Shown here in pieces: positions 5,201-8,200 of a stretch of DNA of 64,000 bases (its first letter is position 1; every line of letters begins with the position of its first letter). The DNA is from Panopea generosa (lineage: Eukaryota > Mollusca > Bivalvia > Adapedonta > Hiatellidae): NCBI GenBank assembly GCA_029582155.1, contig CM055901.1:55038625-55102624 (forward strand), written 5' to 3'. The position numbers were made by a program, and so were the translations under genes. The notes beneath the pieces are model-generated. The model was given only the letters and a program-made list of their open reading frames with translations, did not search any database and was not told where the DNA came from.

Positions 5201-8200
5201 TGAGAAATATTTTAGGGATGCACAAGTTTGATGAAGAAAAATGAAAAATGCAGGTGCCAGCACACAATTTTAAAAGTTTACAGGGCAGTCAGAATTACTC
5301 ACCTTGGCCAGTGACTTAATTACAGAGTTGTTGTTGTATGGTGTTCAGTGTCACTTTCAACAATTTTTCAGCCATATCGCGACGGTGTCTACTTGAGACA
5401 GTATTCTGAGCGCTGTCACACTGGAGTGTCATGCTGCAGACACGTGGTATGATACCCCACCCAGTCATATTATACTGACACCGGGCCGACCAGACCTAGA
5501 GCTTTCCTCTAAATGCTGAGCGCCAAGCGAGAAAGCTTCTAATACCATTTTTAAAGTCTTTGGTATGACCCGGCCGTGGATCGAACCAACGACCTTCCGC
5601 CATGCGAGGCTGATGCTCTATCACTAGACCACGCCGCGGTCCTTAATTACAGAGACTGGCAGGCTAATATCAATACAATATACATGGCTGATATTTTGGA
5701 TGAAGAAGTAAGTTTTCTATTGGTGGTGAAAATGTCATAGAGATGTTTAAAGAAGTTTTTCTTATTCCTTTAAAAATGAGAAAAGGATCACAAAAAAAAT
5801 AACTGTATGCGTAAAATTTCTTTGAATTTAAAAACTGAATAGTTCACCACCATCAGTTACAATCAAGCTCTTTCTTTTGATAATAAATCACGTAAATATG
5901 TTGACTGGTAACGATTCAGGAGGAGTAGTGCTTCTGAGATATAGAAAACGCTTTGGCCTTTACTCTGCTGAACTAAAAAGATATGGTAGACAGTATTTAT
6001 GTAAAGTTAAATGTTTACTGATCTTTATCAGAGACATATAAACATGTAATTAAGTCACTGCCTATATAAAACAAAGTTGTATGGTGTTTCGCATCGCTTT
6101 TAACATTTATTCAGTCATATTGTGATGGTGTCTACTTGAGCTATGGTGTCTACTTGAGACACAATTCTAATCACTGCCACCATGCAGTTTCATGCCACAG
6201 ACGTAAAATGATACTGTAGTGAATGTACATAGATCACTTAAAACAGCCTCACTGTTAGCTAGCTTTTACAGCAACATGATTGAAGTGCACTGACTGTTAT
6301 GGGAGTTAAGTCACGAAGTACGGGGTCGGTACTTGGATGGGTGACCACTGTCACTTTAATGGCAATGGGGATTAACTTTTGACCTGGGGACCTGCGCCTG
6401 CACAAATCTCTCTTTCCTTAGGATGGGGCGGGATATGACCAGGAACTGAGGGAAGCTACAGACAGGATAAATAGGATAAGAGTGTAGTGAATGTACATAG
6501 GTCACGTATAACAGCCTCACTGTTTAGCTAGCTTTTACAGCGACATGCTTGCAGTACACTGACAGTATTGGAAGTAAAGCAATGAAGTACAGGGTTTTTA
6601 CATGGATGGGTGACCAATGTTACATTAATACTCCACCAACCCACATTTTACTGACATTGTTAATGGTATGATGCCGTAATTTGTTTTCAATCATAACCTG
6701 AATTCGAACACTTCCGAGATTATGAATATCGCGTACACATATTTCAACTTCCTGCACAATTGGCAATATTTACAAACAGTATTCATATGGTCACTGAATG
6801 CAATAAGAAATATTAAAAATAATGCTTCCAATACAAGAAAATCATTTTATGATACCAGTGTTTTCTCCAGAGCGCGTTTCTTGCGTTTTAGACGCGATTA
6901 AATCTCATTTGACGCAATCAAGATTGTTCAGTGTGTCCACTATGACGCAACCTTAAAAATACAGAAATTCAAATTACGCATATTTGTTTCAGCAAGCTAG
7001 TTTCAGAGTTAAGTATTACAATGCTAGCTGTTTTGGCAGATTCAGGGAAACCCTGGTCACGCGGTTCTACTACGTTAACGCTCTAATTGGTTATTAACAC
7101 TTTATTGATGCAATCGCATAGACGATTATGATCACATACATAATTTTCCGCAAAGCAATATTATAGTTTGAAGACAAAATAAGTGAAAACAAACATATGC
7201 TGCAACAAAAGCACTGAGATATACCCAGTTTTAAATTGTTTGTATATTAAGATGAAATGTGGAAATCGTGAAACTTTTCAAGAAAGTTGTTTGAAGTGTA
7301 GGGACGTTACTCTATCTGAAAACCTTTTTATATTGTTTTCTATAAGGTATCGAGACGGGCATGCGCAACATTTTAATACCAGTTTTAACATAGGCTGGTC
7401 CATGTTTATGGCGGTATTCCAGGCGCCGTTTATGTTTCTTACGGACATTTAAAAGGTTATGGAAAAAGGTTTTTAGAAAATAATATTCATTTTGAAAAAT
7501 GATTTTATAATTTCAGAAATTTAACTTATTTTGGTTAAGTTGCCATTAAAATGTTATAAAATTAAGGTAACATTACTCTAAAATGAGTCTAGCTATGCAC
7601 CAGAAGAGAAATGGTTTTGGGGAAAAGAAAACAATAACAAAGTTTTGTTTTCCAAAGAGTATAATGCTTAGTAATGGTTTACATGAAGCTCAGCTCAAAT
7701 ACAAGCTGTTGAAATAATTTTAGTGTTTTTCATTATAAATAGTTGGGGCCATGACATTTGAAAAATTCATGGCCCTGTGGCCACGATCATAAAAACAACT
7801 AGAATATAGTTGTTGTAACTTGTTGCCGTAAAGTGAAACATTCATTTGAAGTTATTTACTTAAATTACAGCTTTGATTGAGAAATTTGTGTGAAACAGAA
7901 ATTTAAACTGTTTTAGTAAATTATGTATTTTTTACCACCATTTATTCAAGTTGATTTAGTTAAAAATTAGTCAACTGATGACCCCCATATTTTTAGTCAG
8001 TGGGTCATCAATGACCCCCAAAAAATTGGGGCTGGAGAAAACACTGTGATACAGACTTGAAAAACTGTTGTTTCTCACTACGTCCATTTTTCAGCTTACA
8101 TAAAACCTCAACAAATGCTGTTTGTTTTGCGAATATCGATTTTTCAAACATATCTGCTGAATAAACTAATGCAATACAGGTCAAGGTCAAAAGTTATGAA

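Follow-up and report, generated by a model that had tools for sequence, protein, structure and literature searches.

Anatomy of the element in the window

In the window, a stretch of 64,000 nucleotides from the bivalve Panopea generosa, no open frame reaches 150 aa. At 6215-6627, on the plus strand, it carries a single decayed copy of a short, repeat-bounded element (copy A). The direct repeats of this copy align in ungapped blocks of 49 bp and 106 bp, which are 88% and 81% identical; read as LTRs, they are 84.0% identical. A second copy of the same family (copy B) lies on the minus strand. The features of the two copies are as follows.

6211-6214, no strand: left copy of the target duplication, ATAC, read in the sequence by eye
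6215-6358, plus: LTR1 of copy A (TGTAGTGAATG...CACTTTA), from the sequence and repeat comparison
6264-6267, plus: TTTT in LTR1 (family LTR positions 51-54), putative pol III terminator site
6303-6315, plus: box A-like part of the 5S-derived promoter in LTR1, register from the 5S alignment
6330-6346, plus: box C-like part of the 5S-derived promoter in LTR1 (TACTTGGATGGGTGACC), from the 5S alignment
6359, plus: one-base spacer between LTR1 and the primer-site remnant of copy A
6359-6482, plus: non-coding internal region of copy A, ending on the right in a decayed polypurine tract
6360-6372, plus: decayed primer-binding site, with 10 of the 13 letters of the family sequence TGGCGACGAGGAT
6483-6627, plus: LTR2 of copy A, from the sequence and repeat comparison
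6533-6536, plus: TTTT in LTR2, putative terminator, placed by family position
6572-6584, plus: box A-like part in LTR2, from the 5S alignment
6599-6615, plus: box C-like part in LTR2, from the 5S alignment
6628-6631, no strand: right copy of the target duplication, ATAC, read in the sequence by eye
49466-49895, minus: copy B, same TRIM family (LTR1 49751-49895, LTR2 49466-49610)

An earlier note on this DNA had described two direct repeats with 5S-like box A and box C, and such stretches are indeed found in both repeats of copy A, which we read as LTR1 and LTR2. The exact strings that it gave each hold for one repeat: the box A string occurs in LTR2 and not in LTR1, which reads GAGTTAAGTCA, and the box C string occurs in LTR1 and not in LTR2, which reads ATGGATGGGTGACC. 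The imperfect 5-bp target duplication proposed there is better read as a perfect 4-bp duplication (ATAC, 6211-6214 and 6628-6631), and the end of the element moves from 6626 to 6627. Just upstream of copy A, at window 6125-6158, is a perfect 16-bp pair (ATGGTGTCTACTTGAG), 18 bp apart.

The LTRs of copy B are 93.8% identical. Its flanks read TAGC and CAGC, its primer site has changed to CGGCCACTATGAT, and the copy sits inside a 1.8-kb repeat at window 48592-50429. The same carrier, with a TRIM copy of its own, was found at L063 (C8:4.49 Mb), with 88.7% identity over 1848 aligned bases. Flanks like TAGCCTTCAAA, seen at many of the listed LTR 3' ends, suggest that there are more copies of the 48592-50429 carrier.

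Copy number and forms of the family

The family element is ∼430 bp long. Its LTRs measure 145 bp (TGTAGTG...CACTTTA); a single spacer base separates LTR1 from a 13-nt primer-binding site, and the polypurine tract reads GGGGAGGAG. The 30 copies that we aligned span 391-432 bp. Among 27 simple copies, identity within LTR pairs has a median of 90.9% and reaches 96.2% at best, which argues that the family is not very young.

A 30-mer across the junction of LTR1 and primer site matches the 1.47-Gb genome at 396 places (206 + 190) with up to two mismatches, compared to none for the reversed control. For a 32-mer across the junction of purine tract and LTR2, with up to three mismatches, the count is 622 places (337 + 285), again with none for the control. 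The exact 26-base LTR start, preceded by a non-T base nine places upstream, occurs 351 times in the genome. Among the 100 of these starts that were listed, 43 follow a purine tract that keeps 6 or more of its 9 letters. A single carrier repeat (AAATGAAAG or AAATGTAAG) accounts for 30, which leaves 27 others. Given the share of listed starts in this one carrier, part of the copy number reflects hitchhiking on other repeats rather than transposition of the TRIM itself.

Intact LTR-internal-LTR structures account for 33 of the 77 units in our set, from which duplicate loci had been dropped; the remainder are truncated, tandem or fragmentary. One caveat is that these loci were picked with element, internal-region or primer-site queries, and hence are uninformative on the frequency of solo LTRs. 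Solo LTRs were sampled among 20 of the 100 listed LTR starts, namely 19 of the 27 others plus one carrier copy, leaving out loci already in the set and second copies of one flank. The 19 starts without a purine tract comprise five complete solo LTRs, nine LTRs joined to internal sequence and five LTR fragments, one of which (L091) adjoins an inverted LTR start. Three of the five solo LTRs have identical 4-bp flanks (AATA, GTGC and TAGT), and the flanks of the other two agree at three of four positions. The earlier note had asked whether solo repeats exist; they do, some of them with 4-bp duplications. Tandem forms are present as well. At C14:28034722-28036716 (L009), seven LTRs and a fragment alternate with internal regions at a period of ∼285 bp, and L078 has the form LTR-internal-LTR-internal-LTR, flanked by ATAG at either end.

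Target duplications and empty sites

We compared the flanks of 34 independent insertions, which remained of 43 two-ended units once cases of shared flanks had been filtered out. When the LTR is taken to end in TTTA, the 4-bp flanks are identical in 21 of the 34, compared to 0.45 expected by re-pairing, and identity is absent in the other 13. Copy B is within the 34 and was scored as a miss (TAGC versus CAGC); copy A is outside, because its LTR2 alignment ended early, and its ATAC pair was read by eye. In the same register, five identical bases are seen in none of the 34 insertions. Shifting one base leftward gives five identical bases in 8 of 34 (0.24 expected), and shifting two leftward gives six in 5 of 34; these matches arise because the last bases of the LTR are then counted in. 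The family's duplication is 4 bp, not the 5 bp that had been anticipated.

Sites lacking the element were also sought. When the two flanks of one carrier were joined around one AAAG, the resulting sequence was found at 34 places (up to three mismatches allowed; 2 exact), compared to 0 for the control; these empty-site matches were counted from the sequence search of the genome only. When the joined flanks of the 34 insertions were compared with the loci of the insertion set, no clear empty site was seen.

A 5S-derived promoter segment in the LTR

To place the 5S-like part, the majority line of the LTR was aligned to a host 5S gene taken from L029. LTR positions 90-135 match nucleotides 49-94 of the host 5S at 40 of 46 positions, ungapped. 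Box A, the intermediate element and box C all fall within the matching segment, which extends no farther: similarity to 5S upstream of box A is not above chance, with 1439 of 5000 shuffles scoring as high. We also compared four single LTRs, two of them from copy A; each scored higher against the host 5S than any of 2000 shuffled versions of itself, so the alignment to 5S rRNA suggested in the earlier note comes out in its favor. With the Rfam 5S model, the window copy gave no hit at E values up to 10, and a better copy scored 13.4 bits (E 8.9; cut-off 38); we reject the idea that the element is a functional 5S gene. Among the matches listed, the host 5S genes themselves lie mostly in groups of three to five with a spacing of ∼190 bp and ∼1.5 kb between groups, at L029 and at C2:1.137-1.163 Mb, with a further copy at C4:64238883.

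We next consider conservation. Across 120 LTRs, the 5S-like part shows no extra conservation: non-CpG mismatch to the majority sequence is 0.059, compared to 0.055 elsewhere in the LTR (rank test, P = 0.08). Because the segment is no better conserved than other LTR sequence, we see nothing that would indicate selection on the boxes once the copies had inserted. Such equal divergence fits neutral decay after insertion.

In 25 of the 30 aligned copies, TTTT is found at LTR position 51 (51-54), in LTR1 and LTR2 each. Further T4 runs in the 30 copies comprise eight at columns 163-164 (TTTCG to TTTTG), just inside the primer region, and lone runs, one each, at columns 41, 84, 112, 193, 325, 370 and 399. 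From the sequence we infer the use of pol III and the points at which transcription would start and stop. The TTTT lies only ∼10 nt past the presumed start, and could cause an early stop of the polymerase.

The primer-binding site and host tRNA-Ser(GCT)

The family primer site, TGGCGACGAGGAT, is complementary at 13 of 13 positions to the 3' end of a host tRNA-Ser(GCT), made up of the final ten bases of its gene followed by CCA. ARAGORN identified this gene in L087. Farther inside the element, TTCGAACC matches the T arm of the same tRNA-Ser(GCT), in nearly the right register. A two-part tRNA contact is known for yeast Ty elements, and the TRIM family may likewise contact tRNA-Ser through both the acceptor end and the T arm.

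A 25-nt primer site, with up to three mismatches, occurs at 28 places. Twenty-six of these read like the ends of tRNA-Ser genes, one of which (L087) was confirmed with ARAGORN, and two are on C18. The surroundings of the two C18 places showed nothing LTR-like: a tandem repeat of 31 bp and a pair of 90-nt copies, 194 bp apart, were all that we found. Of the 28 places, 22 resemble tRNA-Ser(GCT) 3' ends and fall within ∼104 kb (C4:63.70-63.81 Mb, L087).

Ty3/gypsy and gypsy-like families with the same primer site

The primer-site 13-mer plus a non-T base occurs at 47 places in the genome, compared to 5 for the control. Sorted by eye, these comprise ten AATTTGGAAAGC-like places, twelve with ACTGAACCGTCACG, sixteen TRIM variants and nine others. 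We examined three loci of the AATTTGGAAAGC-like ten (L110-L112) and one of the ACTGAACCGTCACG twelve (L113).

In L110, the LTRs (615-869 and 6477-6732) are identical at 250 of 255 positions. The element is flanked by AATT duplications, and its LTR tips read TGTGGTGAA and TCACAATA. One base separates the LTR from the primer site, and GGGGAGGAG precedes LTR2. Its ends resemble those of the TRIM majority sequence, with 20 of 23 letters shared at the purine tract and LTR start, and 19 of 22 at the LTR end, spacer and primer site. The LTR interiors of L110 and the TRIM gave no convincing alignment. Right end, purine tract and 4-bp duplication of this gypsy family were seen in L110, the only copy whose right end the examined stretches covered, and the five open stretches of at least 120 codons in that copy gave no RT match. 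One of these open stretches holds a TatD-related DNase fragment (L110:5367-5744), perhaps a captured host gene.

L111 and L112 are like L110 in the LTR and primer region, although the first part of the L112 LTR is missing. Together, they give matches to gag, protease, RT, RNase H and integrase, with the protease and RT matches in L111 and the integrase core in L112. The integrase frame (L112:1415-2881, minus strand) has a PHD-finger match near its end, and helix-hairpin-helix frames lie upstream of gag in both L111 and L112; these frames and the PHD match look unusual for gypsy elements. On these data, we propose the Ty3/gypsy family of L110-L112 as the likely helper of the TRIM, by which its mobilisation would be explained.

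DISCUSSION

The structure is that of a TRIM. The family has two terminal direct repeats, is shorter than 1000 bp and lacks coding capacity; a primer site lies just inside LTR1, a polypurine tract precedes LTR2, the duplication is short and constant, and solo LTRs exist. Its LTR also holds promoter sequence of a small-RNA gene, the mark of a TRIMp3. The earlier note had suggested a Cassandra-like TRIM in an animal, and the LTRs, primer site, polypurine tract, 4-bp duplications, solo LTRs, empty sites and 5S segment all bear this out.

The whole is, in our view, very probably best explained by a TRIM with a 5S-derived promoter, a pol III cycle, priming by tRNA-Ser, insertion by gypsy integrase and the L110-L112 family as the likely source of proteins. 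In such a cycle, pol III would start ∼48 bp upstream of box A, near position 42 of LTR1, read through the promoter, primer-binding site, internal region and polypurine tract, and stop at the TTTT at positions 51-54 of LTR2. Given a start near position 42, as 5S spacing predicts, and a stop at TTTT, the RNA would be ∼300 nt long, with a terminal repeat of ∼13 nt common to its two ends. Host tRNA-Ser(GCT) would prime the minus strand and the purine tract the plus strand, and a gypsy integrase would insert the cDNA with a 4-bp duplication, the proteins likely coming from the L110-L112 Ty3/gypsy family.

Other explanations were weighed. One would take the element for a dimer of a 5S-derived SINE (SINE3), or for part of an array of dispersed 5S pseudogenes, with LINE-type target-primed reverse transcription as the means of spread. 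A short, non-coding element with a 5S promoter segment would suit this idea, as would the existence of tandem LTR-internal arrays such as L009 (7 LTRs plus fragment). It is hard to reconcile, however, with 4-bp duplications of constant length, or with the two inner junctions, one of which holds a primer site that matches a tRNA and the other a purine tract. Solo LTRs that bear duplications also speak against it, as do empty sites; moreover, in the 100 LTR 3' ends listed of 116 (with most LTR1 copies left out), the flanks vary and no tail is common to them. Nor did our samples consist mostly of monomers, or of tandem arrays with LINE-type tails, the outcome that the earlier note had set against its own reading; the arrays are alternating LTR and internal units. 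The duplications and empty sites, together with the solo LTRs and the two junction signals, lead us to reject this explanation, to which we attach almost no credence. Because of the same evidence, together with the LTR anatomy and the 5S match, we regard the family as a TRIM with a 5S-derived, pol III-type promoter, and not as a SINE.

Two further alternatives keep the TRIM and change the polymerase or the helper. Transcription by pol II, now or when the family was active, would turn the 5S segment into a passenger, in keeping with its lack of extra conservation in the 120 LTRs and with the chance-level 5S similarity upstream of box A. On the other hand, the captured part is exactly the promoter segment, from box A to box C, with correct spacing and 40 of 46 positions matching; the sole family-wide T4 sits where a short terminal repeat needs it; and Cassandra is described as starting and ending in its 5S parts (PMC10886601). 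We consider pol II transcription quite improbable. As to the helper, mobilisation could be due to a gypsy-like family other than L110-L112, for instance that of L113. This second family has the same tRNA-Ser primer site and makes up 12 of the 47 primer-site places, and an open frame of 548 codons at L113:857-2500, cut by the examined stretch, gives weak gag and protease matches, all below curated cut-offs. Its LTR end beside the primer site reads ATTATATC, unlike CACTTTA or CACAATA (only the left junction was compared). Since the LTR end of L113 differs while the ends of L110 match the TRIM, L110-L112 is the better candidate, and we think a helper from another family unlikely.

The pol III-transcribed TRIM that we favor has relatives in the literature. 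In the papers found, 5S-promoter TRIMs are known from plants (Cassandra) and from two nemerteans (Ajax) (PMC10886601). Ajax is 421-434 bp long, with 5-bp duplications and a tRNA-Leu primer (Kojima 2024, PMC10886601). As described there, it is, like the Panopea family, an animal TRIM of similar size with a primer site, its LTRs hold only the promoter part of 5S (box A, intermediate element and box C), the 5S part is diverged upstream of box A, and LTRs are many more than internal regions (PMC10886601). By the same description, the Panopea family is set apart by its 4-bp rather than 5-bp duplication, its tRNA-Ser(GCT) rather than tRNA-Leu primer, and its bivalve rather than nemertean host. Two ferritin exons, from two places in the genome, each have as first hit 6LP5, the ferritin of the bivalve Sinonovacula constricta (PMC8961696, PMC8395497), and for one exon 6KZY of Tegillarca granosa comes second. 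7EMK, from the nemertean Dendrorhynchus zhejiangensis, does not appear among the 60 best hits of either exon; these matches point towards a bivalve. COX1 was not found in the assembly. By structure, it is a TRIMp3 of the Ajax/Cassandra type that lacks two of the features describing Ajax, the duplication length and the primer. Since Ajax has already been described (PMC10886601), the Panopea family is not the first animal 5S TRIM; among open-licence PMC full texts, judged by title and abstract, no further report of an animal 5S TRIM was found.

Cassandra shares with the Panopea family a 5S-derived pol III promoter in the LTRs, a primer site and a purine tract (PMC10853983, PMC10886601), as well as tandem arrays (PMC7215508). 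It differs in its plant hosts, its methionine tRNA primer site, compared to the tRNA-Ser site in Panopea, and its length of 565-860 bp (PMC10853983, PMC10886601). The terminal repeat of its RNA, derived by the same logic, is given as 18 nt, compared to the ∼13 nt that we predict (PMC10886601).

Two further TRIMs are known from bivalves. Helenus, found in bivalves and others, resembles the Panopea family in its pol III-type promoter and in its duplications, which in animals are 4 bp long (PMC10886601). Its primers in bivalves include tRNA-Ser, and gypsy partners have been inferred for it from the primer site, again as in Panopea; its promoter, however, is tRNA-derived and not 5S-derived (PMC10886601). 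The portions of the biv-TRIM report consulted describe a bivalve TRIM with a purine tract (GGGGAGA) and with tandem and solo forms, again as in Panopea; its LTRs are 202-218 bp and its inner domain of 77-80 bp contains TGATCCCAAAGGAC, with no unambiguous primer site, and those portions mention no 5S part (PMC6934838). In the Panopea family, the LTR is 145 bp, and TGATCCCAAAGGAC is absent from the two inner regions examined. SINE3, as outlined in PMC10886601, likewise has a 5S-derived promoter in a short non-coding element, but differs in its LINE-type mobilisation and in being without LTRs, primer site or purine tract.

This further family, which differs in primer and in duplication length, suggests that 5S promoters may have entered LTR elements on more than one occasion. 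Tentatively, and with somewhat more doubt than confidence, we suggest that a TRIM captured a 5S promoter for a third, independent time in the bivalve lineage, giving an element with a helper identifiable by its ends, a terminal repeat of ∼13 nt and a two-part contact with tRNA-Ser. PMC10886601 states that nothing points to the autonomous family behind the mobilisation of Cassandra, and that the way in which TRIM dependence is maintained is not known. In Panopea, there is a concrete helper candidate in the same genome, matching the TRIM mainly at the cis-acting ends; the signals that a TRIM must keep to borrow proteins therefore become testable.
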